From Allolobophora icterica (taxonomy: Eukaryota > Annelida > Clitellata > Crassiclitellata > Lumbricidae), in assembly GCA_963556255.1 (NCBI GenBank), contig OY744607.1, forward strand, positions 5,038,503-5,102,502: 64,000 bases of DNA, read 5' to 3'. Position numbers and translations under genes: made by a program. The notes beneath the pieces were generated by a model that saw only the letters and a list, made by a program, of their open reading frames with translations, searched no databases and was not told the DNA's origin. How positions within the stretch are numbered: the first letter of the stretch is position 1; each line of letters begins with the position of its first letter. Shown here in pieces: positions 4,791 through 64,000 of the stretch.

Positions 4791-4796
4791 CAGTGG

Positions 4797-9925: not shown

Positions 9926-9941
9926 GGGCGCGGTGGCTTAG
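9907..9941. repeat. inverted repeat at the SINE head
   Basis: CTAAGCCACCACGCCC (9907-9922) is followed, after three bases, by GGGCGCGGTGGCTTAG (9926-9941), its reverse complement with one mismatch. The SINE's first 16 bases are thus present twice, head to head. Confidence 0.9.
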
Positions 9942-18124: not shown

Positions 18125-18242
18125 ATGGCTACTGGTGAAATCGACTGCCTTGCCGACAAACTGGTAAAGACGTCGATCGGCGAAGTGGGCGTGGTATTGA
18201 GCTTTGCGGGCGATGGATTGAAACTAGACGGCGAGGAAGATG
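18125..18242 (+). CDS. RANGAP1: RanGAP1 exon 1 (start codon)
   Basis: Codes residues 1-39 and the first base of codon 40. The N-terminal helix [15 protein letters not shown] is followed by [15 protein letters not shown]. The donor is G|GTAGAG (phase 1). Read on past the donor, the frame runs to a stop near 18334 with no family similarity, which supports the splice. Confidence 0.85.
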
Positions 18243-27413: not shown

Positions 27414-27542
27414 GTTGGCTTAAATTCTTTGTTGCAGATCAGTTGTGCTTCCAAAACAAGTTCGGTAATTCTCCGTTTCATGCACGATTTCAAAGGTTCA
27501 CTGTGTATATTCCAGTTGGTTGGTTGGCTAGTTGCTTTTTAA
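27414..27542 (+). other. open continuation of exon 11 to a stop codon
   Basis: If the donor at 27413 is not used, the RanGAP1 frame runs 42 more codons to TAA at 27540-27542. It adds VGLNSLLQISCASK and a hydrophobic end. I see no similarity to the RanGAP1 C-terminal domain. No AATAAA lies close behind. This could be an early end of a short isoform or just intron. Confidence 0.35.
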
Positions 27543-32390: not shown

Positions 32391-35300
32391 ACGGTCACCA
32401 TTTCTGTTTCATTTACCGTCGCCATTTCTTTGTTATTTACCGTCACTATTTCTGTTTCATAAACCACCACCATTTCTGTTTCATATACCACGACCATTTC
32501 TGTGTCATATACCACGACCATTTCTGTGTCATATACAACCACCATTTCTGTGTCATATACCACGACCATTTCTGTGTCATATACCACCACCCTTTCTGTT
32601 TCATATACCACGACCATTTCTGTGTCATATACCCCGACCATTTCTGTGTCATATACTACGACCATTTCTGTGTCATATACCACCACCTATTCTGTTTCAT
32701 ATACCACCATTTCTGTGTCATATACCACGACCATTTCTGTTTCATATACCACCACCATTTCTGTGTCATATACCACCACCATTTCTGTGTCCTATACCAC
32801 GACCATTTCTGTGTCATACACCACGACTATTTCTGTGTCATATACCACCATCATTTCTGTGTAATATACCACCACCATTTCTGTGTAATATACCACCACC
32901 ATTTCTGTTTCATATACCACCACCTTTTCGGTTTCATATACCAAGACCATTTCTGTGTCATATACCACGACCATTTCTGTTTCATATACGACCACCATTT
33001 CTGTTTCACATACGACCACCATTTCTGTTTCATTTACCGCCACCATTTCTGTGTCATATACGACCACCATTTCTGTTTCATATACCACCACCATTTCTGT
33101 GTCATATACGACCACCATTTCTGTTTCATATACCACCACCATTTCTGTTTCGTATACCACCACCATTTCTGTTTCATATACCACCACCATTTCTGTTTCG
33201 TATACCACCACCATTTCTGTGTCATATACGACCACCATTTCTGTTTCATATACAACCACCATTTCTGTGTCATATACGACCACCATTTCTGTTTCATATA
33301 CCACCACCATTTCTGTTTCGTATACCACCACCATTTCTGTTTCATATACCACCACCATTTCTGTTTCCTATACCACCACCATATCTGTTTCATATACCAC
33401 CACCATTTCTGTGTCATATACGACCACCATTTCTGTTTCATATACCACCACCATTTCTGTTTCATATACGACCACCATTTCTGTTTCGTATACCACCACC
33501 ATTTCTGTTTCATTTACCGCCACCATTTCTGTGTCATATACGACCACCATTTCTGTTTCATATACAACCACTATTTCTGTTTCATATACCACCACCATTT
33601 CTGTGTCATATACAACCACCATTTCTGGTTCATATACCACCACCCTTTCTGTTTCATATACGACCACCATTTCTGTTTCATTTACCGCCACCATTTCTGT
33701 GTCATATACCACCACCATTTCTGTGTCATATGCGACCACCATTTCTGTTTCATATACCACCACCATTTCTGTGTCATATACGACCACCATTTCTGTTTCG
33801 TATACCACCAGCATTTCTGTGTCATATACGACCACCATTTCTGTTTCATATACAACCACCATTTCTGTGTCATATACGACCACCATTTCTGTTTCATATA
33901 CCAACACCATTTCTGTTTCGTATACCACCACCATTTCTGTTTCATATACCACCACCATTTCTGTTTCGTATACCGCCACCATTTCTGTTTCATTTACCGC
34001 CACCATTTCTGTGTCATATACGACCACGATTTCTGTTTCATATAAAACCACTATTTCTGTTTCATATACCACCACCATTTCTGTTTCGTATACCACCACC
34101 ATTTCTGTTTCATATACCACCACCATTTCTGTTTCGTATACCACCACCATTTCTGTGTCATATACGACCACCATTTCTGTTTCATATACAACCACCATTT
34201 CTGTGTCATATACGACCACCATTTCTGTTTCATATACCACCACCATTTCTGTTTCGTATACCACCCCCATTTCTGTTTCATATACCACCACCATTTCTGT
34301 TTCGTATACCACCACCATTTCTGTTTCATATACCACCACCATTTCTGTGTCATATACGACCACCATTTCTGTTTCATATACAACCACCATTTCTGTGTCA
34401 TGTGCGACCACCATTTCTGTTTCATATACCACCACCATTTCTGTGTCATATACGACCACCATTTCTGTTTCATATACCACCACCTTTTCTGTGTCATATA
34501 CGACCGCCATTTCTGTTTCATATACAACCACCATTTCTGTGTCATATACGACCACCATTTCTGTTTCATTTACCGCCACCATTTCTGTTTCATATAGGAC
34601 CACCATTTCTGTTCCATATACGACCACCATTTCTGTTTCGTATACGACCACCATTTCTGTTTCATATACCACCACCATTTCTGTTTCGTATACCACCACC
34701 ATTTCTGTTTCATATACCACCACCATTTCTGTGTCATATACGACCACCATTTCTGTTTCATATACAACCACCATTTCTGTGTCATATGCGACCACCATTT
34801 CTGTTTCATATACCACCACCATTTCTGTGTCATATACGACCACCATTTCTGTTTCGTATACCACCAGCATTTCTGTGTCATATACGACCACCATTTCTGT
34901 TTCATATACAACCCCCATTTCTGTGTCATATACGACCACCATTTCTGTTTCATATACCAACACCATTTCTGTTTCGTATACCACCACCATTTCTGTTTCA
35001 TATACCACCACCATTTCTGTGTCATATACGACCACCATTTCTGTTTCGTATACCGCCACCATTTCTGTTTCATTTACCGCCACCATTTCTGTGTCATATA
35101 CGACCACGATTTCTGTTTCATATAAAACCACTATTTCTGTTTCATATACCACCACCATTTCTGTTTCGTATACCACCACCATTTCTGTTTCATATACCAC
35201 CACCATTTCTGTTTCGTATACCACCACCATTTCTGTGTCATATACGACCACCATTTCTGTTTCATATACAACCACCATTTCTGTTTCATATACCACCACC

Positions 35301-38300
35301 ATTTCTGTTTCGTATACCACCACCATTTCTGTTTCATATACCACCACCATTTCTGTTTCGTATACCACCACCATTTCTGTGTCATATACGACCACCATTT
35401 CTGTTTCATATACAACCACCATTTCTGTGTCATATACGACCACCATTTCTGTTTCATATACCACCACCATTTCTGTTTCGTATACCACCACCATTTCTGT
35501 TTCATATACCACCACCATTTCTGTGTCATATACGACCACCATTTCTGTTTCATATACCACCACCATTTCTGTGTCATATACGACCACCATTTCTGTTTCG
35601 TATACCGCCACCATTTCTGTTTCATTTACCGCCACCATTTCTGTGTCATATACGACCACCATTTCTGTTTCATATAAAACCACTATTTCTGTTTCATATA
35701 CCACCACCATTTCTGTGTAATATACCACCACGATTTCTGTTTCATATGCCACGACCATTTCTGTGTCATATACCACCACCATTTCTGTGTCATATACCAC
35801 GACTATTTCTGTGTCATATACCACGACCATTTCTGTTTCATATACGACCACCGTTTCTGTTTCATTTACCGCCACCATTTCTGTTTCATTTACGACCACA
35901 TTCCTGTTTCATTTAGCACCATTTCTGTTTCATTTACAACCACCATTTCTGTGTCATATACCACCACCATTTCTGTTTCATATAAGACCACCATTTCCGT
36001 TTCATATACGACCACCATTTCTGTTTCACATACGACCACCATTTCTGTTTCATTTACCACCACCATTTCTGTTTCATTTACCACCACCATTTCTGTTTCA
36101 TTTACGACCACCATTCCTGTTTCATTTACCACCATTTCTGTTTCATTTACAACCACCATTTCTGTGTCATATACGACCACCATTTCTGTTTCATATACGA
36201 CCACCATTTCTGTTTCATTTACGACCACCATTTCTGTTTCATATACCACCACCATTTCTGTTCCATATACGACCACCATTTCTGTTCCATATACGACCAC
36301 CATTTCTGTTTCATTTACCGCCACCATTTCTGTTTCATATAGGACCACCATTTCTGTTCCATATACGACCACCATTTCTGTTTCGTATACGACCACCATT
36401 TCTGTTTCATATACCACCACCATTTCTGTTTCGTATACCAGCACCATTTCTGTTTCATATACCACCACCATTTCTGTGTCATATACGACCACCATTTCTG
36501 TTTCATATACAACCACCATTTCTGTGTCATATGCGACCACCATTTCTGTTTCATATACCACCACCATTTCTGTGTCATATACGACCACCATTTCTGTTTC
36601 ATATACCACCACCTTTTCTGTGTCATATACGACCGCCATTTCTGTTTCATATACAACCACCATTTCTGTGTCATATACGACCACCATTTCTGTTTCATTT
36701 ACCGCCACCATTTCTGTTTCATATAGGACCACCATTTCTGTTCCATATACGACCACCATTTCTGTTTCGTATACGACCACCATTTCTGTTTCATATACCA
36801 CCACCATTTCTGTTTCGTATACCACCACCATTTCTGTTTCATATACCACCACCATTTCTGTGTCATATACGACCACCATTTCTGTTTCATATACAACCAC
36901 CATTTCTGTGTCATATGCGACCACCATTTCTGTTTCATATACCACCACCATTTCTGTGTCATATACGACCACCATTTCTGTTTCATATACCACCACCATT
37001 TCTGTGTCATATACGACCACCATTTCTGTTTCATATACCACCACCATTTCTGTGTCATATACGACCACCATTTCTGTTTCGTATACCACCAGCATTTCTG
37101 TGTCATATACGACCACCATTTCTGTTTCATATACAACCACCATTTCTGTGTCATATACGACCACCATTTCTGTTTTATATACCAACACCATTTCTGTTTC
37201 GTATACCACCACCATTTCTGTTTCATATACCACCACCATTTCTGTGTCATATACGACCACCATTTCTGTTTCGTATACCGCCACCATTTCTGTTTCATTT
37301 ACCGCCACCATTTCTGTGTCATATACGACCACGATTTCTGTTTCATATAAAACCACTATTTCTGTTTCATATACCACCACCATTTCTGTTTCGTATACCA
37401 CCACCATTTCTGTTTCATATACCACCACCATTTCTGTTTCGTATACCACCACCATTTCTGTGTCATATACGACCACCATTTCTGTTTCATATACAACCAC
37501 CATTTCTGTGTCATATACGACCACCATTTCTGTTTCATATACCACCACCATTTCTGTTTCGTATACCACCACCATTTCTGTTTCATATACCACCACCATT
37601 TCTGTTTCGTATACCACCACCATTTCTGTGTCATATACGACCACCATTTCTGTTTCATATACAACCACCATTTCTGTGTCATATACGACCACCATTTCTG
37701 TTTCATATACCACCACCATTTCTGTTTCGTATACCACCACCATTTCTGTTTCATATACCACCACCATTTCTGTGTCATATACGACCACCATTTCTGTTTC
37801 ATATACCACCACCATTTCTGTGTCATTTACAACCACCATTTCTGTGTCATATACGACCACCATTTCTGTTTCATATACGACCACCATTTCTGTTTCATTT
37901 ACGACCACCATTTCTGTTTCATATACCACCACCATTTCTGTTCCATATACGACCACCATTTCTGTTCCATATACGACCACCATTTCTGTTTCATTTACCG
38001 CCACCATTTCTGTTTCATATAGGACCACCATTTCTGTTCCATATACGACCACCATTTCTGTTTCGTATACGACCACCATTTCTGTTTCATATACCACCAC
38101 CATTTCTGTTTCGTATACCACCACCATTTCTGTTTCATATACCACCACCATTTCTGTGTCATATACGACCACCATTTCTGTTTCATATACAACCACCATT
38201 TCTGTGTCATATGCGACCACCATTTCTGTTTCATATACCACCACCATTTCTGTGTCATATACGACCACCATTTCTGTTTCATATACCACCACCTTTTCTG

Positions 38301-41300
38301 TGTCATATACGACCGCCATTTCTGTTTCATATACAACCACCATTTCTGTGTCATATACGACCACCATTTCTGTTTCATTTACCGCCACCATTTCTGTTTC
38401 ATATAGGACCACCATTTCTGTTCCATATACGACCACCATTTCTGTTTCGTATACGACCACCATTTCTGTTTCATATACCACCACCATTTCTGTTTCGTAT
38501 ACCACCACCATTTCTGTTTCATATACCACCACCATTTCTGTGTCATATACGACCACCATTTCTGTTTCATATACAACCACCATTTCTGTGTCATATGCGA
38601 CCACCATTTCTGTTTCATATACCACCACCATTTCTGTGTCATATACGACCACCATTTCTGTTTCATATACCACCACCATTTCTGTGTCATATACGACCAC
38701 CATTTCTGTTTCATATACCACCACCATTTCTGTGTCATATACGACCACCATTTCTGTTTCGTATACCACCAGCATTTCTGTGTCATATACGACCACTATT
38801 TCTGTTTCATATACAACCACCATTTCTGTGTCATATACGACCACCATTTCTGTTTCATATACCAACACCATTTCTGTTTCGTATACCACCACCATTTCTG
38901 TTTCATATACCACCACCATTTCTGTGTCATATACGACCACCATTTCTGTTTCGTATACCGCCACCATTTCTGTTTCATTTACCGCCACCATTTCTGTGTC
39001 ATATACGACCACGATTTCTGTTTCATATAAAACCACTATTTCTGTTTCATATACCACCACCATTTCTGTTTCGTATACCACCACCATTTCTGTTTCATAT
39101 ACCACCACCATTTCTGTTTCGTATACCACCACCATTTCTGTGTCATATACGACCACCATTTCTGTTTCATATACAACCACCATTTCTGTGTCATATACGA
39201 CCACCATTTCTGTTTCATATACCACCACCATTTCTGTTTCGTATACCACCACCATTTCTGTTTCATATACCACCACCATTTCTGTTTCGTATACCACCAC
39301 CATTTCTGTGTCATATACGACCACCATTTCTGTTTCATATACAACCACCATTTCTGTGTCATATACGACCACCATTTCTGTTTCATATACCACCACCATT
39401 TCTGTTTCGTATACCACCACCATTTCTGTTTCATATACCACCACCATTTCTGTGTCATATACGACCACCATTTCTGTTTCATATACCACCACCATTTCTG
39501 TGTCATATACGACCACCATTTCTGTTTCGTATACCGCCACCATTTCTGTTTCATTTACCGCCACCATTTCTGTGTCATATACGACCACCATTTCTGTTTC
39601 ATATAAAACCACTATTTCTGTTTTATATACCACCACCATTTCTGTGTCATATACCACCACGATTTCTGTTTCATATGCCACGACCATTTCTGTGTCATAT
39701 ACCACCACCATTTCTGTGTCATATACCACGACTATTTCTGTGTCATATACCACGACCATTTCTGTTTCATATACGACCACCGTTTCTGTTTCATTTACCG
39801 CCACCATTTCTGTTTCATTTACGACCACCATTCCTGTTTCATTTAGCACCATTTCTGTTTCATTTACAACCACCATTTCTGTGTCATATACCACCACCAT
39901 TTCTGTTTCATATAAGACCACCATTTCCGTTTCATATACGACCACCATTTCTGTTTCACAAACGACCACCATTTCTGTTTCATTTACCACCACCATTTCT
40001 GTTTCATTTACCACCACCATTTCTGTTTCATTTACGACCACCATTCCTGTTTCATTTACCACCATTTCTGTTTCATTTACAACCACCATTTCTGTGTCAT
40101 ATACGACCACCATTTCTGTTTCATATACGACCACCATTTCTGTTTCATTTACGACCACCATTTCTGTTTCATATACCACCACCATTTCTGTTCCATATAC
40201 GACCACCATTTCTGTTCCATATACGACCACCATTTCTGTTTCATTTACCGCCACCATTTCTGTTTCATATAGGACCACCATTTCTGTTCCATATACGACC
40301 ACCATTTCTGTTTCGTATACGACCACCATTTCTGTTTCGTATACCACCACCATTTCTGTTTCATATACCACCACCATTTCTGTGTCATATACGACCACCA
40401 TTTCTGTTTCATATACCACCACCATTTCTGTGTCATATACGACCACCATTTCTGTTTCGTATACCGCCACCATTTCTGTTTCATTTACCGCCACCATTTC
40501 TGTGTCATATACGACCACCATTTCTGTTTCATATAAAACCACTATTTCTGTTTTATATACCACCACCATTTCTGTGTCATATACCACCACGATTTCTGTT
40601 TCATATGCCACGACCATTTCTGTGTCATATACCACCACCATTTCTGTGTCATATACCACGACTATTTCTGTGTCATATACCACGACCATTTCTGTTTCAT
40701 ATACGACCACCGTTTCTGTTTCATTTACCGCCACCATTTCTGTTTCATTTACGACCACCATTCCTGTTTCATTTAGCACCATTTCTGTTTCATTTACAAC
40801 CACCATTTCTGTGTCATATACCACCACCATTTCTGTTTCATATAAGACCACCATTTCCGTTTCATATACGACCACCATTTCTGTTTCACAAACGACCACC
40901 ATTTCTGTTTCATTTACCACCACCATTTCTGTTTCATTTACCACCACCATTTCTGTTTCATTTACGACCACCATTCCTGTTTCATTTACCACCATTTCTG
41001 TTTCATTTACAACCACCATTTCTGTGTCATATACGACCACCATTTCTGTTTCATATACGACCACCATTTCTGTTTCATTTACGACCACCATTTCTGTTTC
41101 ATATACCACCACCATTTCTGTTCCATATACGACCACCATTTCTGTTCCATATACGACCACCATTTCTGTTTCATTTACCGCCACCATTTCTGTTTCATAT
41201 AGGACCACCATTTCTGTTCCATATACGACCACCATTTCTGTTTCGTATACGACCACCATTTCTGTTTCGTATACCACCACCATTTCTGTTTCATATACCA

Positions 41301-44300: not shown

Positions 44301-47300
44301 TTTCTGTTTCATATACCACCACCATTTCTGTTTCGTATACCACCACCATTTCTGTTTCATATACCACCACCATTTCTGTGTCATATACGACCACCATTTC
44401 TGTTTCATATACAACCACCATTTCTGTGTCATATGCGACCACGATTTCTGTTTCATATACCACCACCATTTCTGTGTCATATACGACCACCATTTCTGTT
44501 TCATATACCACCACCTTTTCTGTGTCATATACGACCGCCATTTCTGTTTCATATACAACCACCATTTCTGTGTCATATACGACCACCATTTCTGTTTCAT
44601 TTACCGCCACCATTTCTGTTTCATATAGGACCACCATTTCTGTTCCATATACGACCACCATTTCTGTTTCATATACCACCACCATTTCTGTTTCGTATAC
44701 CACCACCATTTCTGTTTCATATACCACCACCATTTCTGTGTCATATACGACCACCATTTCTGTTTCATATACAACCACCATTTCTGTGTCATCTGCGACC
44801 ACCATTTCTGTTTCATATACCACCACCATTTCTGTGTCATATACGACCACCATTTCTGTTTCATATACCACCACCATTTCTGTGTCATATACGACCACCA
44901 TTTCTGTGTCATATACAACCACCATTTCTGTGTCATATACGACCACCATTTCTGTTTCATATACCATAACCGTTTCTGTTTCGTATACCACCACCATTTC
45001 TGTTTCATATACCACCACCATTTCTGTTTCGTATACCACCACCATTTCTGTGTCATATACCACCACCATTTCTGTTTCATATACCACCACCATTTCTGTG
45101 TCATATACGACCACCATTTCTGTTTCGTATACCGCCACCATTTCTGTTTCATTTACCGCCACCATTTCTGTGTCATATACGACCACCATTTCTGTTTCAT
45201 ATAAAACCACTATTTCTGTTTCATATACCACCACCATTTCTGTTGCGTATACCACCACCATTTCTGTTTCATATACCACCACCATTTCTGTTTCGTATAC
45301 CACCACCATTTCTGTGTCATATACGACCACCATTTCTGTTTCATATACAACCACCATTTCTGTGTCATATACGACCACCATTTCTGTTTCATATAGGACC
45401 ACCATTTCTGTTCCATATACGACCACCATTTCTGTTTCGTATACGACCACCATTTCTGTTTCATATACCACCACCATTTCTGTTTCGTATACAACCACCA
45501 TTTCTGTTTCATATACAACCACCATTTCTGTGTCATATACGACCACCATTTCTGTTTCATATACCACCACCATTTCTGTTTCGTATACCACCACCATTTC
45601 TGTTTCATATACCACCACCATTTCTGTTTCGCATACCACCACCATTTCTGTGTCATATACGACCACCATTTCTGTTTCATATACAACCACCATTTCTGTG
45701 TCATATACGACCACCATTTCTGTTTCATATACCACCACCATTTCTGTTTCGTATACCACCACCATTTCTGTTTCATATACCACCACCATTTCTGTGTCAT
45801 ATACGACCACCATTTCTGTTTCATATACCACCACCATTTCTGTGTCATATACGACCACCATTTTGTTTCGTATACCGCCACCATTTCTGTTTCATTTACC
45901 GCCACCATTTCTGTGTCATATACGACCACCATTTCTGTTTCATATAAAACCACTATTTCTGTTTCATATACCACCACCATTTCTGTGTCATATACCACCA
46001 CGATTTCTGTTTCATATGCCACGACCATTTCTGTGTCATATACCACCACCATTTCTGTGTCATATACCACGACTATTTCTGTGTCATATACCACGACCAT
46101 TTCTGTTTCATATACGACCACCGTTTCTGTTTCATTTACCGCCACCATTTCTGTTTCATTTACGACCACCATTCCTGTTTCATTTAGCACCATTTCTGTT
46201 TCATTTACAACCACCATTTCTGTGTCATATACCACCACCATTTCTGTTTCATATAAGACCACCATTTCCGTTTCATATACGACCACCATTTCTGTTTCAC
46301 ATACGACCACCATTTCTGTTTCATTTACCACCACCATTTCTGTTTCATTTACCACCACCATTTCTGTTTCATTTACGACCACCATTCCTGTTTCATTTAC
46401 CACCATTTCTGTTTCATTTACAACCACCATTTCTGTGTCATATACGACCACCATTTCTGTTTCATTTACGACCACCATTTCTGTTTCATATACCACCACC
46501 ATTTCTGTTCCATATACGACCACCATTTCTGTTCCATATACGACCACCATTTCTGTTTCATTTACCGCCACCATTTCTGTTTCATATAGGACCACCATTT
46601 CTGTTCCATATACGACCACCATTTCTGTTTCGTATACGACCACCATTTCTGTTTCATATACCACCACCATTTCTGTTTCATATACCACCACCATTTCTGT
46701 TCCATATACGACCACCATTTCTGTTCCATATACGACCACCATTTCTGTTTCATTTACCGCCACAATTTCTGTTTCATATAGGACCACCATTTCTGTTCCA
46801 TATACGACCACCATTTCTGTTTCGTATACGACCACCATTTCTGTTTCATATACCACCACCATTTCTGTTTCGTATACCACCACCATTTCTGTTTCATATA
46901 CCGCCACCATTTCTGTGTCATATACGACCACCATTTCTGTTTCATATACAACCACCATTTCTGTGTCATATGCGACCACCATTTCTGTTTCATATACCAC
47001 CACCATTTCTGTGTCATATACGACCACCATTTCTGTTTCATATACCACCACCTTTTCTGTGTCATATACGACCGCCATTTCTGTTTCATATACAACCACC
47101 ATTTCTGTGTCATATACGACCACCATTTCTGTTTCATTTACCGCCACCATTTCTGTTTCATATAGGACCACCATTTCTGTTCCATATACGACCACCATTT
47201 CTGTTTCGTATACGACCACCATTTCTGTTTCATATACCACCACCATTTCTGTTTCGTATACCACCACCATTTCTGTTTCATATACCACCACCATTTCTGT

Positions 47301-50300
47301 GTCATATACGACCACCATTTCTGTTTCATATACAACCACCATTTCTGTGTCATCTGCGACCACCATTTCTGTTTCATATACCACCACCATTTCTGTGTCA
47401 TATACGACCACCATTTCTGTTTCATATACCACCACCATTTCTGTGTCATATACGACCACCATTTCTGTGTCATATACAACCACCATTTCTGTGTCATATA
47501 CGACCACCATTTCTGTTTCATATACCATAACCGTTTCTGTTTCGTATACCACCACCATTTCTGTTTCATATACCACCACCATTTCTGTTTCGTATACCAC
47601 CACCATTTCTGTGTCATATACCACCACCATTTCTGTTTCATATACCACCACCATTTCTGTGTCATATACGACCACCATTTCTGTTTCATATACAACCACC
47701 ATTTCTGTGTCATATGCGACCACCATTTCTGTTTCATATACCACCACCATTTCTGTGTCATATACGACCACCATTTCTGTTTCATATACCACAACCTTTT
47801 CTGTGTCATATACGACCGCCATTTCTGTTTCATATACAACCACCATTTCTGTGTCATATACGACCACCATTTCTGTTTCATTTACCGCCACCATTTCTGT
47901 TTCATATAGGACCACCATTTCTGTTCCATATACGACCACCATTTCTGTTTCGTATACGACCACCATTTCTGTTTCATATACCACCACCATTTCTGTTTCG
48001 TATACCACCACCATTTCTGTTTCATATACCACCACCATTTCTGTGTCATATACGACCACCATTTCTGTTTCATATACAACCACCATTTCTGTGTCATCTG
48101 CGACCACCATTTCTGTTTCATATACCACCACCATTTCTGTGTCATATACGACCACCATTTCTGTTTCATATACCACCACCATTTCTGTGTCATATACGAC
48201 CACCATTTCTGTGTCATATACAACCACCATTTCTGTGTCATATACGACCACCATTTCTGTTTCATATACCATAACCGTTTCTGTTTCGTATACCACCACC
48301 ATTTCTGTTTCGTATACCACCACCATTTCTGTTTCATATACCACCACCATTTCTGTTTCGTATACCACCACCATTTCTGTGTCATATACGACCACCATTT
48401 CTGTTTCATATACAACCACCATTTCTGTGTCATATACGACCACCATTTCTGTTTCATATACCACCACCATTTCTGTTTCGTATACCACCACCATTTCTGT
48501 TTCATATACCACCACCATTTCTGTTTCGTATACCACCACCATTTCTGTGTCATATACGACCACCATTTCTGTTTCATATACAACCACCATTTCTGTGTCA
48601 TATACGACCACCATTTCTGTTTCATATACCACCACCATTTCTGTTTCGTATACCACCACCATTTCTGTTTCATATACCACCACCATTTCTGTGTCATATA
48701 CGACCACCATTTCTGTTTCATATACCACCACCATTTCTGTGTCATATACGACCACCATTTCTGTTTCGTATACCGCCACCATTTCTGTTTCATTTACCGC
48801 CACCATTTCTGTGTCATATACGACCACCATTTCTGTTTCATATAAAACCACTATTTCTGTTTCATATACCACCACCATTTCTGTGTCATATACCACCACG
48901 ATTTCTGTTTCATATGCCACGACCATTTCTGTGTCATATACCACCACCATTTCTGTGTCATACACCACGACTATTTCTGTGTCATATACCACGACCATTT
49001 CTGTTTCATATACGACCACCGTTTCTGTTTCATTTACCGCCACCATTTCTGTTTCATTTACGACCACCATTCCTGTTTCATTTAGCACCATTTCTGTTTC
49101 ATTTACAACCACCATTTCTGTGTCATATACCACCACCATTTCTGTTTCATATAAGACCACCATTTCCGTTTCATATACGACCACCATTTCTGTTTCACAT
49201 ACGACCACCATTTCTGTTTCATTTACCACCACCATTTCTGTTTCATTTACCACCACCATTTCTGTTTCATTTACGACCACCATTCCTGTTTCATTTACCA
49301 CCATTTCTGTTTCATTTACAACCACCATTTCTGTGTCATATACGACCACCATTTCTGTTTCATTTACGACCACCATTTCTGTTTCATATACCACCACCAT
49401 TTCTGTTCCATATACGACCACCATTTCTGTTCCATATACGACCACCATTTCTGTTTCATTTACCGCCACCATTTCTGTTTCATATAGGACCACCATTTCT
49501 GTTCCATATACGACCACCATTTCTGTTTCGTATACGACCACCATTTCTGTTTCATATACCACCACCATTTCTGTTTCATATACCACCACCATTTCTGTTC
49601 CATATACGACCACCATTTCTGTTCCATATACGACCACCATTTCTGTTTCATTTACCGCCACAATTTCTGTTTCATATAGGACCACCATTTCTGTTCCATA
49701 TACGACCACCATTTCTGTTTCGTATACGACCACCATTTCTGTTTCATATACCACCACCATTTCTGTTTCGTATACCACCACCATTTCTGTTTCATATACC
49801 GCCACCATTTCTGTGTCATATACGACCACCATTTCTGTTTCATATACAACCACCATTTCTGTGTCATATGCGACCACCATTTCTGTTTCATATACCACCA
49901 CCATTTCTGTGTCATATACGACCACCATTTCTGTTTCATATACCACCACCTTTTCTGTGTCATATACGACCGCCATTTCTGTTTCATATACAACCACCAT
50001 TTCTGTGTCATATACGACCACCATTTCTGTTTCATTTACCGCCACCATTTCTGTTTCATATAGGACCACCATTTCTGTTCCATATACGACCACCATTTCT
50101 GTTTCGTATACGACCACCATTTCTGTTTCATATACCACCACCATTTCTGTTTCGTATACCACCACCATTTCTGTTTCATATACCACCACCATTTCTGTGT
50201 CATATACGACCACCATTTCTGTTTCATATACAACCACCATTTCTGTGTCATCTGCGACCACCATTTCTGTTTCATATACCACCACCATTTCTGTGTCATA

Positions 50301-53300
50301 TACGACCACCATTTCTGTTTCATATACCACCACCATTTCTGTGTCATATACGACCACCATTTCTGTGTCATATACAACCACCATTTCTGTGTCATATACG
50401 ACCACCATTTCTGTTTCATATACCATAACCGTTTCTGTTTCGTATACCACCACCATTTCTGTTTCATATACCACCACCATTTCTGTTTCGTATACCACCA
50501 CCATTTCTGTGTCATATACCACCACCATTTCTGTTTCATATACCACCACCATTTCTGTGTCATATACGACCACCATTTCTGTTTCATATACAACCACCAT
50601 TTCTGTGTCATATGCGACCACCATTTCTGTTTCATATACCACCACCATTTCTGTGTCATATACGACCACCATTTCTGTTTCATATACCACCACCTTTTCT
50701 GTGTCATATACGACCGCCATTTCTGTTTCATATACAACCACCATTTCTGTGTCATATACGACCACCATTTCTGTTTCATTTACCGCCACCATTTCTGTTT
50801 CATATAGGACCACCATTTCTGTTCCATATACGACCACCATTTCTGTTTCGTATACGACCACCATTTCTGTTTCATATACCACCACCATTTCTGTTTCGTA
50901 TACCACCACCATTTCTGTTTCATATACCACCACCATTTCTGTGTCATATACGACCACCATTTCTGTTTCATATACAACCACCATTTCTGTGTCATCTGCG
51001 ACCACCATTTCTGTTTCATATACCACCACCATTTCTGTGTCATATACGACCACCATTTCTGTTTCATATACCACCACCATTTCTGTGTCATATACGACCA
51101 CCATTTCTGTGTCATATACAACCACCATTTCTGTGTCATATACGACCACCATTTCTGTTTCATATACCATAACCGTTTCTGTTTCGTATACCACCACCAT
51201 TTCTGTTTCGTATACCACCACCATTTCTGTTTCATATACCACCACCATTTCTGTTTCGTATACCACCACCATTTCTGTGTCATATACGACCACCATTTCT
51301 GTTTCATATACAACCACCATTTCTGTGTCATATACGACCACCATTTCTGTTTCATATACCACCACCATTTCTGTTTCGTATACCACCACCATTTCTGTTT
51401 CATATACCACCACCATTTCTGTTTCGTATACCACCACCATTTCTGTGTCATATACGACCACCATTTCTGTTTCATATACAACCACCATTTCTGTGTCATA
51501 TACGACCACCATTTCTGTTTCATATACCACCACCATTTCTGTTTCGTATACCACCACCATTTCTGTTTCATATACCACCACCATTTCTGTGTCATATACG
51601 ACCACCATTTCTGTTTCATATACCACCACCATTTCTGTGTCATATACGACCACCATTTCTGTTTCGTATACCGCCACCATTTCTGTTTCATTTACCGCCA
51701 CCATTTCTGTGTCATATACGACCACCATTTCTGTTTCATATAAAACCACTATTTCTGTTTCATATACCACCACCATTTCTGTGTCATATACCACCACGAT
51801 TTCTGTTTCATATGCCACGACCATTTCTGTGTCATATACCACCACCATTTCTGTGTCATATACCACGACTATTTCTGTGTCATATACCACGACCATTTCT
51901 GTTTCATATACGACCACCGTTTCTGTTTCATTTACCGCCACCATTTCTGTTTCATTTACGACCACCATTCCTGTTTCATTTAGCACCATTTCTGTTTCAT
52001 TTACAACCACCATTTCTGTGTCATATACCACCACCATTTCTGTTTCATATAAGACCACCATTTCCGTTTCATATACGACCACCATTTCTGTTTCACATAC
52101 GACCACCATTTCTGTTTCATTTACCACCACCATTTCTGTTTCATTTACCACCACCATTTCTGTTTCATTTACGACCACCATTCCTGTTTCATTTACCACC
52201 ATTTCTGTTTCATTTACAACCACCATTTCTGTGTCATATACGACCACCATTTCTGTTTCATATACGACCACCATTTCTGTTTCATTTACGACCACCATTT
52301 CTGTTTCATATACCACCACCATTTCTGTTCCATATACGACCACCATTTCTGTTCCATATACGACCACCATTTCTGTTTCATTTACCGCCACCATTTCTGT
52401 TTCATATAGGACCACCATTTCTGTTCCATATACGACCACCATTTCTGTTTCGTATAAGACCACCATTTCTGTTTCATATACCACCACCATTTCTGTTTCG
52501 TATACCACCACCATTTCTGTTTCATATACCACCACCATTTCTGTGTCATATACGACCACCATTTCTGTTTCATATACAACCACCATTTCTGTGTCATATG
52601 CGACCACGATTTCTGTTTCATATACCACCACCATTTCTGTGTCATATACGACCACCATTTCTGTTTCATATACCACCACCTTTTCTGTGTCATATACGAC
52701 CGCCATTTCTGTTTCATATACAACCACCATTTCTGTGTCATATACGACCACCATTTCTGTTTCATTTACCGCCACCATTTCTGTTTCATATAGGACCACC
52801 ATTTCTGTTCCATATACGACCACCATTTCTGTTTCGTATACGACCACCATTTCTGTTTCATATACCACCACCATTTCTGTTTCGTATACCACCACCATTT
52901 CTGTTTCATATACCACCACCATTTCTGTGTCATATACGACCACCATTTCTGTTTCATATACAACCACCATTTCTGTGTCATCTGCGACCACCATTTCTGT
53001 TTCATATACCACCACCATTTCTGTGTCATATACGACCACCATTTCTGTTTCATATACCACCACCATTTCTGTGTCATATACGACCACCATTTCTGTGTCA
53101 TATACAACCACCATTTCTGTGTCATATACGACCACCATTTCTGTTTCATATACCATAACCGTTTCTGTTTCGTATACCACCACCATTTCTGTTTCATATA
53201 CCACCACCATTTCTGTTTCGTATACCACCACCATTTCTGTGTCATATACCACCACCATTTCTGTTTCATATACCACCACCATTTCTGTGTCATATACGAC

Positions 53301-56300
53301 CACCATTTCTGTTTCGTATACCGCCACCATTTCTGTTTCATTTACCGCCACCATTTCTGTGTCATATACGACCACCATTTCTGTTTCATATAAAACCACT
53401 ATTTCTGTTTCATATACCACCACCATTTCTGTTTCGTATACCACCACCATATCTGTTTCATATACCACCACCATTTCTGTTTCGTATACCACCACCATTT
53501 CTGTGTCATATACGACCACCATTTCTGTTTCATATACAACCACCATTTCTGTGTCATATACCACCACCATTTCTGTTTCATATAAGACCACCATTTCCGT
53601 ATCATATACGACCACCATTTCTGTTTCACATACGACCACCATTTCTGTTTCATTTACCACCACCATTTCTGTTTCATTTACCACCACCATTTCTGTTTCA
53701 TTTACGACCACCATTCCTGTTTCATTTACCACCATTTCTGTTTCATTTACAACCACCATTTCTGTGTCATATACGACCACCATTTCTGTTTCATATACGA
53801 CCACCATTTCTGTTTCATTTACGACCACCATTTCTGTTTCATATACCACCACCATTTCTGTTCCATATACGACCACCATTTCTGTTCCATATACGACCAC
53901 CATTTCTGTTTCATTTACCGCCACCATTTCTGTTTCATATAGGACCACCATTTCTGTTCCATATACGACCACCATTTCTGTTTCGTATAAGACCACCATT
54001 TCTGTTTCATATACCACCACCATTTCTGTTTCGTATACCACCACCATTTCTGTTTCATATACCACCACCATTTCTGTGTCATATACGACCACCATTTCTG
54101 TTTCATATACAACCACCATTTCTGTGTCATATGCGACCACGATTTCTGTTTCATATACCACCACCATTTCTGTGTCATATACGACCACCATTTCTGTTTC
54201 ATATACCACCACCTTTTCTGTGTCATATACGACCGCCATTTCTGTTTCATATACAACCACCATTTCTGTGTCATATACGACCACCATTTCTGTTTCATTT
54301 ACCGCCACCATTTCTGTTTCATATAGGACCACCATTTCTGTTCCATATACGACCACCATTTCTGTTTCGTATACGACCACCATTTCTGTTTCATATACCA
54401 CCACCATTTCTGTTTCGTATACCACCACCATTTCTGTTTCATATACCACCACCATTTCTGTGTCATATACGACCACCATTTCTGTTTCATATACAACCAC
54501 CATTTCTGTGTCATCTGCGACCACCATTTCTGTTTCATATACCACCACCATTTCTGTGTCATATACGACCACCATTTCTGTTTCATATACCACCACCATT
54601 TCTGTGTCATATACGACCACCATTTCTGTGTCATATACAACCACCATTTCTGTGTCATATACGACCACCATTTCTGTTTCATATACCATAACCGTTTCTG
54701 TTTCGTATACCACCACCATTTCTGTTTCATATACCACCACCATTTCTGTTTCGTATACCACCACCATTTCTGTGTCATATACCACCACCATTTCTGTTTC
54801 ATATACCACCACCATTTCTGTGTCATATACGACCACCATTTCTGTTTCGTATACCGCCACCATTTCTGTTTCATTTACCGCCACCATTTCTGTGTCATAT
54901 ACGACCACCATTTCTGTTTCATATAAAACCACTATTTCTGTTTCATATACCACCACCATTTCTGTTTCGTATACCACCACCATATCTGTTTCATATACCA
55001 CCACCATTTCTGTTTCGTATACCACCACCATTTCTGTGTCATATACGACCACCATTTCTGTTTCATATACAACCACCATTTCTGTGTCATATACGACCAC
55101 CATTTCTGTTTCATATAGGACCACCATTTCTGTTCCATATACGACCACCATTTCTGTTTCGTATACGACCACCATTTCTGTTTCATATACCACCACCATT
55201 TCTGTTTCGTATACAACCACCATTTCTGTTTCATATACAACCACCATTTCTGTGTCATATACGACCACCATTTCTGTTTCATATACCACCACCATTTCTG
55301 TTTCGTATACCACCACCATTTCTGTTTCATATACCACCACCATTTCTGTTTCGTATACCACCACCATTTCTGTGTCATATACGACCACCATTTCTGTTTC
55401 ATATACAACCACCATTTCTGTGTCATATACGACCACCATTTCTGTTTCATATACCACCACCATTTCTGTTTCGTATACCACCACCATTTCTGTTTCATAT
55501 ACCACCACCATTTCTGTGTCATATACGACCACCATTTCTGTTTCATATACCACCACCATTTCTGTGTCATATACGACCACCATTTCTGTTTCGTATACCG
55601 CCACCATTTCTGTTTCATTTACCGCCACCATTTCTGTGTCATATACGACCACCATTTCTGTTTCATATAAAACCACTATTTCTGTTTCATATACCACCAC
55701 CATTTCTGTGTCATATGCCACGACCATTTCTGTGTCATATACCACCACCATTTCTGTGTCATATACCACGACTATTTCTGTGTCATATACCACGACCATT
55801 TCTGTTTCATATACGACCACCGTTTCTGTTTCATTTACCGCCACCATTTCTGTTTCATTTACGACCACCATTCCTGTTTCATTTAGCACCATTTCTGTTT
55901 CATTTACAACCACCATTTCTGTGTCATATACCACCACCATTTCTGTTTCATATAAGACCACCATTTCCGTTTCATATACGACCACCATTTCTGTTTCACA
56001 TACGACCACCATTTCTGTTTCATTTACCACCACCATTTCTGTTTCATTTACCACCACCATTTCTGTTTCATTTACGACCACCATTCCTGTTTCATTTACC
56101 ACCATTTCTGTTTCATTTACAACCACCATTTCTGTGTCATATACGACCACCATTTCTGTTTCATTTACGACCACCATTTCTGTTTCATATAAAACCACCA
56201 TTTCTGTTCCATATACGACCACCATTTCTGTTCCATATACGACCACCATTTCTGTTTCATTTACCGCCACCATTTCTGTTTCATATAGGACCACCATTTC

Positions 56301-59300
56301 TGTTCCATATACGACCACCATTTCTGTTTCGTATACGACCACCATTTCTGTTTCATATACCACCACCATTTCTGTTTCGTATACCACCACCATTTCTGTT
56401 TCATATACCACCACCATTTCTGTGTCATATACGACCACCATTTCTGTTTCATATACAACCACCATTTCTGTGTCATATGCGACCACCATTTCTGTTTCAT
56501 ATACCACCACCATTTCTGTGTCATATACGACCACCATTTCTGTTTCATATACCACCACCTTTTCTGTGTCATATACGACCGCCATTTCTGTTTCATATAC
56601 AACCACCATTTCTGTGTCATATACGACCACCATTTCTGTTTCATTTACCGCCACCATTTCTGTTTCATATAGGACCACCATTTCTGTTCCATATACGACC
56701 ACCATTTCTGTTTCGTATACGACCACCATTTCTGTTTCATATACCACCACCATTTCTGTTTCGTATACCATCACCATTTCTGTTTCATATACCACCACCA
56801 TTTCTGTGTCATATACGACCACCATTTCTGTTTCATATACAACCACCATTTCTGTGTCATCTGCGACCACCATTTCTGTTTCATATACCACCACCATTTC
56901 TGTGTCATATACGACCACCATTTCTGTTTCATATACCACCACCATTTCTGTGTCATATACGACCACCATTTCTGTGTCATATACAACCACCATTTCTGTG
57001 TCATATACGACCACCATTTCTGTTTCATATACCATAACCGTTTCTGTTTCGTATACCACCACCATTTCTGTTTCATATACCACCACCATTTCTGTTTCGT
57101 ATACCACCACCATTTCTGTGTCATATACCACCACCATTTCTGTTTCATATACCACCACCATTTCTGTGTCATATACGACCACCATTTCTGTTTCGTATAC
57201 CGCCACCATTTCTGTTTCATTTACCGCCACCATTTCTGTGTCATATACGACCACCATTTCTGTTTCATATAAAACCACTATTTCTGTTTCATATACCACC
57301 ACCATTTCTGTTTCGTATACCACCACCATTTCTGTTTCATATACCACCACCATTTCTGTTTCGTATACCACCACCATTTCTGTGTCATATACGACCACCA
57401 TTTCTGTTTCATATACAACCACCATTTCTGTGTCATATACGACCACCATTTCTGTTTCATATAGGACCACCATTTCTGTTCCATATACGACCACCATTTC
57501 TGTTTCGTATACGACCACCATTTGTGTTTCATATACCACCACCATTTCTGTTTCGTATACAACCACCATATCTGTTTCATATACCACCACCATTTCTGTG
57601 TCATATACGACCACCATTTCTGTGTCATATACGACCACCATTTCTATTTCATATACCATAACCGTTTCTGTTTCGTATACCACCACCATTTCTGTTTCAT
57701 ATACCACCACCATTTCTGTTTCGTATACCACCACCATTTCTGTGTCATATACCACCACCATTTCTGTTTCATATACCACCACCATTTCTGTGTCATATAC
57801 GACCACCATTTCTGTTTCATATAAAACCACTATTTCTGTTTCATATACAACCACCATTTCTGTTTCGTATACCACCACCATTTCTGTTTCATATACCACC
57901 ACCATTTCTGTGTCATATACGACCACCATTTCTGTTTCATATACCATAACCGTTTCTGTTTCGTATACCACCACCATTTCTGTTTCATATACCACCACCA
58001 TTTCTGTTTCGTATACCACCACCATTTCTGTGTCATATACCACCACCATTTCTGTTTCATATACCACCACCATTTCTGTGTCATATACGACCACCATTTC
58101 TGTTTCGTATACCGCCACCATTTCTGTTTCATTTACCGCCACCATTTCTGTGTCATATACGACCACCATTTCTGTTTCATATAAAACCACTATTTCTGTT
58201 TCATATACCACCACCATTTCTGTTTCGTATACCACCACCATTTCTGTTTCATATACCACCACCATTTCTGTTTCGTATACCACCACCATTTCTGTGTCAT
58301 ATACGACCACCATTTCTGTTTCATATACAACCACCATTTCTGTGTCATATACGACCACCATTTCTGTTTCATATAGGACCACCATTTCTGTTCCATATAC
58401 GACCACCATTTCTGTTTCGCATACGACCACCATTTCTGTTTCATATACCACCACCATTTCTGTTTCGTATACAACCACCATTTCTGTTTCATATACAACC
58501 ACCATTTCTGTGTCATATACGACCACCATTTCTGTTTCATATACCACCACCATTTCTGTTTCGTATACCACCACCATTTCTGTTTCATATACCACCACCA
58601 TTTCTGTTTCGTATACCACCACCATTTCTGTGTCATATACGACCACCATTTCTGTTTCATATACAACCACCATTTCTGTGTCATATACGACCACCATTTC
58701 TGTTTCATATACCACCACCATTTCTGTTTCGTATACCACCACCATTTCTGTTTCATATACCACCACCATTTCTGTGTCATATACGACCACCATTTCTGTT
58801 TCATATACCACCACCATTTCTGTGTCATATACGACCACCATTTCTGTTTCGTATACCGCCACCATTTCTGTTTCATTTACCGCCACCATTTCTGTGTCAT
58901 ATACGACCACCATTTCTGTTTCATATAAAACCACTATTTCTGTTTCATATACCACCACCATTTCTGTGTCATATACCACCACGATTTCTGTTTCATATGC
59001 CACGACCATTTCTGTGTCATATACCACCACCATTTCTGTGTCATATACCACGACTATTTCTGTGTCATATACCACGACCATTTCTGTTTCATATACGACC
59101 ACCGTTTCTGTTTCATTTACCGCCACCATTTCTGTTTCATTTACGACCACCATTCCTGTTTCATTTAGCACCATTTCTGTTTCATTTACAACCACCATTT
59201 CTGTGTCATATACCACCACCATTTCTGTTTCATATAAGACCACCATTTCCGTTTCATATACGACCACCATTTCTGTTTCACATACGACCACCATTTCTGT

Positions 59301-62300
59301 TTCATTTACCACCACCATTTCTGTTTCATTTACCACCACCATTTCTGTTTCATTTACGACCACCATTCCTGTTTCATTTACCACCATTTCTGTTTCATTT
59401 ACAACCACCATTTCTGTGTCATATACGACCACCATTTCTGTTTCATTTACGACCACCATTTCTGTTTCATATACCACCACCATTTCTGTTCCATATACGA
59501 CCACCATTTCTGTTCCATATACGACCACCATTTCTGTTTCATTTACCGCCACCATTTCTGTTTCATATAGGACCACCATTTCTGTTCCATATACGACCAC
59601 CATTTCTGTTTCGTATACGACCACCATTTCTGTTTCATATACCACCACCATTTCTGTTTCGTATACCACCACCATTTCTGTTTCATATACCACCACCATT
59701 TCTGTGTCATATACGACCACCATTTCTGTTTCATATACAACCACCATTTCTGTGTCATATGCGACCACCATTTCTGTTTCATATACCACCACCATTTCTG
59801 TGTCATATACGACCACCATTTCTGTTTCATATACCACCACCTTTTCTGTGTCATATACGACCGCCATTTCTGTTTCATATACAACCACCATTTCTGTGTC
59901 ATATACGACCACCATTTCTGTTTCATTTACCGCCACCATTTCTGTTTCATATAGGACCACCATTTCTGTTCCATATACGACCACCATTTCTGTTTCGTAT
60001 ACGACCACCATTTCTGTTTCATATACCACCACCATTTCTGTTTCGTATACCACCACCATTTCTGTTTCATATACCACCACCATTTCTGTGTCATATACGA
60101 CCACCATTTCTGTTTCATATACAACCACCATTTCTGTGTCATCTGCGACCACCATTTCTGTTTCATATACCACCACCATTTCTGTGTCATATACGACCAC
60201 CATTTCTGTTTCATATACCACCACCATTTCTGTGTCATATACGACCACCATTTCTGTGTCATATACAACCACCATTTCTGTGTCATATACGACCACCATT
60301 TCTGTTTCATATACCATAACCGTTTCTGTTTCGTATACCACCACCATTTCTGTTTCATATACCACCACCATTTCTGTTTCGTATACCACCACCATTTCTG
60401 TGTCATATACCACCACCATTTCTGTTTCATATACCACCACCATTTCTGTGTCATATACGACCACCATTTCTGTTTCGTATACCGCCACCATTTCTGTTTC
60501 ATTTACCGCCACCATTTCTGTGTCATATACGACCACCATTTCTGTTTCATATAAAACCACTATTTCTGTTTCATATACCACCACCATTTCTGTTTCGTAT
60601 ACCACCACCATTTCTGTTTCATATACCACCACCATTTCTGTGTCATATACGACCACCATTTCTGTTTCATATACAACCACCATTTCTGTGTCATCTGCGA
60701 CCACCATTTCTGTTTCATATACCACCACCATTTCTGTGTCATATACGACCACCATTTCTGTTTCATATACCACCACCATTTCTGTGTCATATACGACCAC
60801 CATTTCTGTGTCATATACAACCACCATTTCTGTGTCATATACGACCACCATTTCTGTTTCATATACCATAAGCGTTTCTGTTTCGTATACCACCACCATT
60901 TCTGTTTCATATACCACCACCATTTCTGTTTCGTATACCACCACCATTTCTGTGTCATATACCACCACCATTTCTGTTTCATATACCACCACCATTTCTG
61001 TGTCATATACGACCACCATTTCTGTTTCGTATACCGCCACCATTTCTGTTTCATTTACCGCCACCATTTCTGTGTCATATACGACCACCATTTCTGTTTC
61101 ATATAAAACCACTATTTCTGTTTCATATACCACCACCATTTCTGTTTCGTATACCACCACCATTTCTGTTTCATATACCACCACCATTTCTGTTTCGTAT
61201 ACCACCACCATTTCTGTGTCATATACGACCACCATTTCTGTTTCATATACAACCACCATTTCTGTGTCATATACGACCACCATTTCTGTTTCATATAGGA
61301 CCACCATTTCTGTTCCATATACGACCACCATTTCTGTTTCGTATACGACCACCATTTCTGTTTCATATACCACCACCATTTCTGTTTCGTATACAACCAC
61401 CATTTCTGTTTCATATACCACCACCATTTCTGTGTCATATACGACCACCATTTCTGTGTCATATACGACCACCATTTCTGTTTCATATACCATAACCGTT
61501 TCTGTTTCGTATACCACCACCATTTCTGTTTCATATACCACCACCATTTCTGTTTCGTATACCACCACCATTTCTGTGTCATATACCACCACCATTTCTG
61601 TTTCATATACCACCACCATTTCTGTGTCATATACGACCACCATTTCTGTTTCATATAAAACCACTATTTCTGTTTCATATACGACCACCATTTCTGTTTC
61701 ATATACAACCACCATTTCTGTGTCATCTGCGACCACCATTTCTGTTTCATATACCACCACCATTTCTGTGTCATATACCACCACCATTTCTGTGTCATAT
61801 ACGACCACCATTTCTGTTTCATATACAACCACCATTTCTGTGTCATATACGACCACCATTTCTGTTTCATATACCATAACCGTTTCTGTTTCGTATACCA
61901 CCACCATTTCTGTTTCATATACCACCACCATTTCTGTTTCGTATACCACCACCATTTCTGTGTCATATACCACCACCATTTCTCTTTCATATACCACCAC
62001 CATTTCTGTGTCATATACGACCACCATTTCTGTGTCATATACGACCACCATTTCTGTTTCATTTACCGCCACCATTTCTGTTTCATATAGGACCACCATT
62101 TCTGTTCCATATACGACCACCATTTCTGTTTCGTATACGACCACCATTTCTGTTTCATATACCACCACCATTTCTGTTTCGTATACCACCACCATTTCTG
62201 TTTCATATACCACCACCATTTCTGTTTCGTATACCACCACCATTTCTGTGTCATATACGACCACCATTTCTGTTTCATATACAACCACCATTTCTGTGTC

Positions 62301-64000
62301 ATATACGACCACCATTTCTGTTTCATATAGGACCACCATTTCTGTTCCATATACGACCACCATTTCTGTTTCGTATACGACCACCATTTCTGTTTCATAT
62401 ACCACCACCATTTCTGTTTCGTATACCACCACCATTTCTGTTTCATATACCACCACCATTTCTGTTTCGTATACCACCACCATTTCTGTGTCATATACGA
62501 CCACCATTTCTGTTTCATATACAACCACCATTTCTGTGTCATATACGACCACCATTTCTGTTTCATATAGGACCACCATTTCTGTTCCATATACGACCAC
62601 CATTTCAGTTTCGTATACGACCACCATTTCTGTTTCATATACCACCACCATTTCTGTTTCGTATACCACCACCATTTCTGTTTCGTATACCACCACCATT
62701 TCTGTGTCATATACGACCACCATTTCTGTTTCATATACAACCACCATTTCTGTGTCATATGCGACCACCATTTCTGTTTCATATACCACCACCATTTCTG
62801 TTTCGTATACCACCACCATTTCTGTTTCATATACCACCACCATTTCTGTTTCGTATACCACCACCATTTCTGTTTCATATACCACCACCATTTCTGTGTC
62901 ATATACGACCACCATTTCTGTTTCATATACCACCACCTTTTCTGTGTCATATACGACCACCATTTCTGTTTCATATACCACCACCATTTCTGTGTCATAT
63001 ACGACCACCATTTCTGTTTCGTATACCGCCACCATTTCTGTTTCATATACAACCACCATTTCTGTGTCATATACGACCACCATTTCTGTTTCATATACCA
63101 CCACCATTTCTGTTTCGTATACCACCACCATTTCTGTTTCATATAGCACCAGCATTTCTGTTTCGTATACCACCAGCATTTCTGTGTCATATACGACCAC
63201 CATTTCTGTTTCATATACAACCACCATTTCTGTGTCATATATACGACCACCATTTCTGTTTCATATACCAACACCATTTCTGTTTCGTATACCACCACCA
63301 TTTCTGTTTCATATACCACCACCATTTCTGTGTCATATACGACCACCATTTCTGTTTCGTATACCGCCACCATTTCTGTTTCATTTACCGCCACCATTTC
63401 TGTGTCATATACGACCACCATTTCTGTTTCATATAAAACCACTATTTCTGTTTCATATACCACCACCATTTCTGTTTCGTATACCACCACCATTTCTGTT
63501 TCATATACCACCACCATTTCTGTTTCGTATACCACCACCATTTCTGTGTCATATACGACCACCATTTCTGTTTCATATACAACCACCATTTCTGTGTCAT
63601 ATACGACCACCATTTCTGTTTCATATACCACCACCATTTCTGTTTCGTATACCACCACCATTTCTGTTTCATATACCACCACCATTTCTGTTTCGTATAC
63701 CACCACCATTTCTGTGTCATATACGACCACCATTTCTGTTTCATATACAACCACCATTTCTGTGTCATATACGACCACCATTTCTGTTTCATATACCACC
63801 ACCATTTCTGTTTCGTATACCACCACCATTTCTGTTTCATATACCACCACCATTTCTGTGTCATATACGACCACCATTTCTGTTTCATATACCACCACCA
63901 TTTCTGTGTCATATACGACCACCATTTCTGTTTCGTATACCGCCACCATTTCTGTTTCATTTACCGCCACCATTTCTGTTTCGTATACCACCACCATTTC
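32391..64000. repeat. 24-bp megasatellite array, over 31 kb, runs off the window
   Basis: About 1,300 units of 24 bp share the form ATTTCTGTTTCATATACC followed by two ACC triplets. Main variants are GTTTCA/GTGTCA/GTTTCG and ATACC/ATACG/ATACA, with rarer ATTTACC, ATAGGACC, ATAAAACC and GTTCCAT. A few 21-bp units lack one ACC. The first units (to about 32900) are the most divergent. Consensus frames read SYTTTISV, FHIPPPFL and HHHFCFIY on the plus strand, and MVVVYETE and KWWWYMKQ on the minus strand; only one of six frames has a stop. The longest are 45210-63227 (minus, 6,005 codons), 35951-47530 (plus) and 35890-45861 (minus). No unique coding sequence, splice structure or promoter is attached, so I annotate a satellite. 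A landmark unit (CATATGCCACGACC) recurs 9 times. Confidence 0.97.
46016..51811. repeat. two successive 2898-bp higher-order blocks in the 24-bp array
   Basis: The landmark ATGCCACGACC lies at 46016, 48914 and 51812, two gaps of exactly 2898 bp. Inspected stretches of the two blocks match almost base for base, including rare units such as ATTTAGCACC and CCATAACCG. Other landmark gaps are 3929, 930, 2706, 2705, 3903 and 3282 bp. Confidence 0.9.

Follow-up and report, generated by a model that had tools for sequence, protein, structure and literature searches.

Two nearly stop-free frames in a 24-bp tandem array of the annelid Allolobophora icterica are probably by-products of satellite homogenisation

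Can a reading frame stay open over tens of kilobases of tandem repeat DNA without encoding a protein? The question is raised by a stretch of 64,000 nucleotides from Allolobophora icterica (assembly GCA_963556255.1, contig OY744607.1, positions 5,038,503 to 5,102,502 of the forward strand; hereafter the window), the right-hand part of which is a tandem array of a 24-bp unit. An initial annotation, made from the letters and a list of open reading frames (ORFs), had left two options side by side, namely that the array was homogenised very recently or that one of its frames is constrained, for example as a low-complexity repeat protein. The analysis presented here favours the first: with a probability of roughly 0.9, the array is a homogenised noncoding short-unit satellite of the minisatellite type, located about 3.85 kb downstream of a gene for Ran GTPase-activating protein 1 (RanGAP1). 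Repeat DNA of this kind is known, the locus itself being new, and judged from its sequence the array would be neither transcribed nor translated.

When the window is aligned from 32341 onward with the 24-bp consensus TCATATACCACCACCATTTCTGTT by a wrap-around procedure, an array emerges (32396–64000, no strand assigned) that starts at 32396, runs unbroken until the window ends and comprises 31,605 bp and 1,320 units, in agreement with the roughly 1,300 units estimated initially. The right end is cut by the window end, as positions 63235–64000 still lie within the array, and 31.6 kb is accordingly a minimum length. Tandem Repeats Finder (TRF), applied to positions 1–34000 of the window, returned a 24-bp period at 32396–33998 with 89% matches. 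Gaps, insertions or a cut at an end affect 25 of the 1,320 units, and the other 1,295, all full-length, represent 84 distinct versions. The term megasatellite, under which the array had first been described, is applied to units of 184–344 bp in the available text of PMC7767330, and minisatellite or short-unit satellite fits a unit of 24 bp better. A degenerate 22-base pattern of the unit gave no exact match in viral and prokaryotic contigs, and in the window outside the array (1 to about 32360) the closest fuzzy matches carry 7 mismatches in 24 positions. The unit is not named in the titles and abstract openings of the satellite literature found, in which it was not searched as text.

For the counting of stop codons, the array was read in four segments between the frameshifts described below and the totals were summed. 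The consensus unit is indeed stop-free in five frames, as had been claimed, but the statement that the array is open in five of six frames for more than 31 kb applies to the consensus and not to the actual sequence, which contains 4 stops in frame SYTTTISV, 3 in MVVVYETE, 16 in HIPPPFLF, 82 in IYHHHFCF, 194 in KQKWWWYM and 1,048 in NRNGGGI*. Only SYTTTISV on the forward strand and MVVVYETE on the minus strand, antisense to it, are nearly stop-free, and even for these two the few stops are accompanied by three frameshifting units that break both frames. The stops of SYTTTISV are located at 32460, 32862, 32886 and 35718, the last three being TAA codons already pointed out at the left edge, and those of MVVVYETE at 32687, 32792 and 33368. 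All seven fall before 35721, while the remaining 28 kb contain none in either frame. The minus strand carries ORFs of 3,323 and 6,005 codons, the longer of which, reported before, extends over 45210–63227.

What carries the proposed explanation is the way in which the units are related to each other. A search for blocks with at least 18 identical units in 20, which by design favours blocks that are alike, listed 45 duplicated blocks in the array. The longest of them comprises 156 units (45653–49384, end approximate, forward strand) and recurs 121 units downstream, in a copy starting at 48550, with 99.9% base identity; another 113 units reappear at a distance of 355 units, and the other listed blocks span 36–73 units at other shifts. 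For the 11 longest duplicated blocks (54–156 units), base identity is 99.1–99.9%, with the qualification that these blocks overlap in part and that units with gaps were left out. Since these blocks are near-identical copies, the array holds few independent mutations, and the impression of "so many variant units" that gave the open frames their weight was misleading, as the variants are largely copies of a few founders. The long near-identical duplications and the 84 versions among the full-length units support recent homogenisation. As in satellite arrays, short units follow each other head to tail over kilobases, and few versions are combined with duplicated multi-unit blocks. That unequal crossing over and related processes homogenise the units of satellites is established knowledge (PMC8122249; PMC7767330).

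The 24-bp unit would thus have been amplified first, after which blocks of tens to more than 100 units would have been duplicated inside the array, presumably through unequal exchange or some comparable process of replication or recombination. Copying in blocks would leave few independent mutations, and the few that created stops in the two frames would not have been among those amplified. With a consensus unit that is free of stops and with stop mutations that were not amplified, two frames can remain open for kilobases without selection. Array edges are generally homogenised less than the interior, and the left edge (32396–35898, forward strand) is less homogenised here as well: its 144 units include 47 full-length versions, and it contains all the stops of SYTTTISV and MVVVYETE. 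The first 2-kb bin, with 82 full units, contains 16 versions that occur once in the whole array, compared with 0–4 in later bins. More varied units and the presence of stops at this edge would be expected if edges take part in fewer exchanges.

The most direct alternative is that SYTTTISV forms one very large exon, coding for a secreted or structural protein of low complexity whose octapeptide repeats contain many Thr, Ser and beta-branched residues; purifying selection would then remove stops from the frame. The interior of about 28 kb without a stop, the high variability of third codon positions, a mild excess of silent changes and a shortage of stop events all speak for such an exon, which we nonetheless consider very unlikely. 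Because copies inherit the variants of their parents, substitution types or independent events were counted instead of units; the P values below are not corrected for the number of frames, regions and measures, of which the nearest-parent analysis alone comprises 36 combinations. In both frames, the single changes that create a stop are transversions without exception. The four stop-creating types of SYTTTISV occur in 3, 3, 0 and 0 units and produce real stops in 3, 1, 0 and 0, as the units at 39956 and 40886 carry such a type yet read CAA. The other 44 transversions are similarly rare over the whole array, with a median of 1 unit, 14 absent and 30 in at most 3 units, so that four transversions drawn at random are all as rare as the stop-creating ones with P = 0.24, a value identical for MVVVYETE. 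Over the whole array, stop-creating transversions are therefore no rarer than others, and the idea of a constrained frame is not supported. In the interior, where 22 of the 44 other transversions are absent, the corresponding P is 0.24 for SYTTTISV, or 0.077 if only real stops are counted, and 0.065 for MVVVYETE.

Silent changes also fail to stand out once the most variable sites are set aside. Over all sites, silent types are commoner than amino-acid-changing ones (rank P = 0.040), largely through sites 2, 8 and 23, whereas without these three sites the mean number of units per possible change is 10.6 for silent and 11.8 for changing types (medians 3.0 and 1.0, P = 0.116). Moreover, silent T-to-C changes, found in 2, 0, 10 and 0 units at positions 5, 17, 20 and 23, are rarer than amino-acid-changing T-to-C changes, found in 61, 13 and 18 units at positions 0, 3 and 18. 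Between the 11 longest duplicated blocks, with each difference counted once (n = 59), 33 differences change an amino acid, 25 are silent and 1 is a stop; without sites 2, 8 and 23 the numbers are 27, 8 and 1, compared with 47:12:4 possible changes. Outside the three shared polymorphic sites, the differences between blocks thus fit random change.

Several results nevertheless weigh against a purely neutral origin of the two frames and in favour of some coding-like constraint. The most variable sites, 2, 8 and 23, are third positions of SYTTTISV, at which the mean heterozygosity is 0.185, compared with 0.054 and 0.048 at the other two (P = 0.022, or 0.064 for any phase). The rank test for stop-creating types in the interior gives 0.157 for SYTTTISV, 0.038 if only real stops are counted, and 0.033 for MVVVYETE. 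A nearest-parent reconstruction, in which reshuffled polymorphisms can be mistaken for new mutations, yielded 99 events. In the SYTTTISV frame these amount to 36 silent, 59 changing and 4 stop events, where 29.7, 64.8 and 4.5 were expected (P = 0.103 for the silent excess). Silent events are in excess both at the left edge (25 versus 17.0 expected, P = 0.016), where stop events number 3 versus 2.0 expected, and in the interior (30 versus 22.2, P = 0.025), where no stop event was found versus 3.5 expected (P = 0.024). Stop events are likewise absent from the interior in the MVVVYETE frame (0 versus 3.3 expected, P = 0.022). If sites 2, 8 and 23 are disregarded, this signal becomes weaker but persists: for SYTTTISV the silent excess then has P = 0.091 over all, 0.080 at the left edge and 0.058 in the interior, and interior stops stand at 0 versus 3.1 expected (P = 0.025), while for MVVVYETE the interior stop shortage has P = 0.102. 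A weak trend towards coding thus remains in SYTTTISV, countered by the substitution types, by the differences between duplicated blocks and by the structural evidence discussed below. As to whether stops are rarer than chance would have them, as had been suggested at the outset, the answer is weakly at most, with some tests nominally significant and others not. The comparison of stop-creating changes with other changes of the same type shows a weak shortage in the interior of SYTTTISV and none over the whole array.

How often such openness arises by chance was addressed with simulated arrays of 1,320 units, which began from the consensus and underwent mutation, deletion and duplication of blocks until their diversity matched that observed. 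Simulations with equal rates at all sites add to the results that speak for constraint. In a first set of 160 runs, 4 ended with no more than 4 SYTTTISV stops and 1 with a stop-free stretch of 1,174 units or longer. A second set, with 200 runs per setting, comprised two equal-rate settings and two settings with uneven rates, the latter chosen by the analyst and not fitted to the data. Four or fewer SYTTTISV stops occurred in 14.5% and 4.5% of the equal-rate runs and in 32.5% and 24% of the uneven-rate runs; stop-free stretches of 1,174 or more units in 4.5% and 2.0% compared with 25% and 13.5%; and both near-open frames were jointly as stop-poor as observed in 2.5% and 1.0% compared with 13% and 7%. 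The share of diversity concentrated in three sites is 0.56 in the actual array, 0.54 and 0.49 under uneven rates and 0.43 and 0.35 under equal rates. The open interior is therefore unusual under the simplest, equal-rate model and not unusual under the more realistic model with uneven rates.

Length changes offer a further view on the frames. With the units at both ends of the array set aside, 23 have a length other than 24 bp; 20 of these measure 21 bp and keep the frame, as a coding repeat would demand. By our grouping, however, these 20 reflect only two or three distinct deletions, mostly copied, so that two or three frame-keeping changes face three frame-shifting ones. The latter, all given on the forward strand, are a 23-bp unit at 35886–35908 (−1), a 23-bp unit at 45845–45867 (−1) and, from the wrap-around alignment, a 26-bp unit at 63235–63260 (+2). 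The duplicate-block counterpart of the first, unit 817, lacks the deletion, as do the duplicate copies of the second, units 683 and 968, which indicates that both deletions are either recent or assembly errors. Unless the units of 23, 23 and 26 bp are assembly errors, length changes in this array do not respect the frame in the manner expected of a coding repeat.

A further point is how a ribosome would enter SYTTTISV. None of the four phase segments of the array contains an in-frame ATG, and the frame is closed upstream by its four stops and by the frameshift at 35886, so that translation would depend on splicing into the array or on a start of an unusual kind. AG dinucleotides are absent from the consensus, and variant units provide 69, one of which may serve for splice entry. 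Protein searches with 716 residues of SYTTTISV and with 700 residues of MVVVYETE each returned no protein at E ≤ 0.001 among about 8,000 scored candidates, in a search that may serve low-complexity queries poorly, and the absence of relatives for both frames is weak evidence against coding.

Pfam matches to SYTTTISV at first seem to tell another story. The C-terminal beta-helix of T4 gp5 (PF22178) is matched with E = 3.3e-29 over 921 residues, 1.5e-21 over 716 and 5.6e-10 over 240, and two Ig-like families lie near their cut-offs, each above in one of two stretches. Translations of three other frames, used as controls, gave 0 matches. Shuffled octapeptides match Pfam as well, however, with 4 of 6 such controls hitting some family at E ≤ 0.1. 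One of them matches gp5 (E = 3.3e-5, below the cut-off), less strongly than the real frame over 240 residues, and another matches an unrelated family above the cut-off, with a best stretch of one residue. From these controls, a gp5 beta-helix identity of SYTTTISV was judged an effect of the 8-residue period and the composition. The octapeptide pattern of gp5 is VxGxxxxx with conserved Val and Gly, and the consensus SYTTTISV has no Gly. Repeat peptides can give confident predicted solenoids without ever being made.

A more specific form of the coding explanation would make SYTTTISV the central exon of a giant invertebrate octapeptide-repeat protein of more than 5,000 residues, folded as a beta-solenoid or forming a heavily O-glycosylated fibre, entered by splicing, under weak selection at codon positions 1 and 2, and with the frameshifts as assembly errors. 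In this form it appears slightly less probable than an exon in general; if the frame did code for a protein, the exon would be exceptional in size for one built of a single repeat. The minus strand might instead encode a repeat protein in the MVVVYETE frame, with the coding sequence reaching the array from outside the window on the right; the right-hand side of this frame lies beyond the window. The two long ORFs, an ATG in every consensus unit, stops confined to the left edge and the interior shortage of stop events are what such a protein would predict. Its silent events, on the other hand, are near expectation (all, 21 versus 20.5; left edge, 15 versus 11.7, P = 0.150; interior, 17 versus 16.4), the three frameshifts shared with SYTTTISV break the frame, and next to the lack of a protein relative there is no Pfam match for a 700-codon stretch of it. 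A protein from this strand is therefore extremely improbable.

Uniformity might also be maintained without any protein, if the array were a protein-binding or heterochromatin-forming satellite or the source of a noncoding RNA. Positions 16, 17, 19, 21 and 22 vary in 1 to 4 of the 1,295 full-length units each, as a binding site might, but invariance of this kind is unspecific, and no Rfam family reaches its gathering score anywhere in the window; as a reading of the sequence, a function of this sort seems hardly likely. That the invariance is unspecific can be seen in a second tandem array of the same window, which serves as an internal control. This 25-bp array (10147–16967, no strand assigned) was found with TRF and analysed by unit at 10160–15300 and 15672–16990. 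In the former segment, 205 of 207 units measure exactly 25 bp, the two odd ones (12 and 4 bp) being taken as cut ends. The versions in it number 22, 12 of the 25 positions do not vary, and identity reaches 94.7% when the sequence is compared with itself 1,775 bp further on, the approximate length of its higher-order repeat; in the latter segment, 52 of 54 units measure 25 bp. Near-constant unit length, few versions, long higher-order repetition and variation at only some positions are common to both arrays. They differ in that the 25-bp array shifts codon phase with each unit, bears one unrelated insert and comprises only about 260 units. Since a 25-bp unit changes codon phase every time, constant length, few versions and site-confined variation can arise in this region without an ordinary coding frame.

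Compared with known systems, the homogenised and probably noncoding array described here resembles minisatellites and short-unit satellites that evolve in concert and form higher-order repeats (PMC8122249; PMC7767330), in its head-to-tail units, few versions and recurrent multi-unit blocks. Minisatellite arrays have a mean length of 0.5–30 kb according to the available text of PMC8122249, and with at least 31.6 kb the array lies at or beyond this range. Unlike those of satellites with higher-order repeats, its block duplications are irregular and follow no single fixed higher-order period. Tandem repeats of Nematostella that can be read as proteins in several frames come from predicted proteins, in the part of the source available (PMC2805694), whereas no gene model was found to enter the present array (no gene finder was run). 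The array illustrates why a very long open frame in a satellite counts as weak evidence for a gene: once a stop-free unit has been multiplied in blocks, the independent chances of a stop are far fewer than the units, and gene predictors and first-pass readers alike can be misled by such arrays.

The nearest gene found is that for RanGAP1 (18125–28545, forward strand), of which 11 exon pieces were placed by eye, without a gene finder, and supported by homology of the joined protein; its stop at 28545 lies to the left of the array. The joined protein of 403 amino acids has 611 matches, the closest of them 89% identical, and among the 120 listed, brachiopod, annelid and mollusc proteins are about 50% identical. 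The gene seems to end without the C-terminal domain PF07834, which is present in most of the 120 listed matches and is also missing from the two closest relatives (423 and 426 amino acids).

Further repeats are found to the left of this gene. The insert that breaks the 25-bp array at about 15310–15665 is unrelated to it; a short piece of array sequence, ACGAAACATT, seems to be repeated directly on its two sides, as happens when a transposon inserts. Degenerate 20-bp repeats (TAGAATC...ACTGATTGC) lie on either side, at 7669–10124 and 17211–17397, as if the 25-bp array had grown inside an older field of 20-bp repeats. At 8450–9481 on the minus strand, an ORF that matches the reverse transcriptase family PF00078 (E = 2.7e-22) is apparently a retroelement fragment, and an interstitial telomere-like array of degenerate GGTTAG/TTAGGG repeats occupies about 400 bp at 4795–5203.

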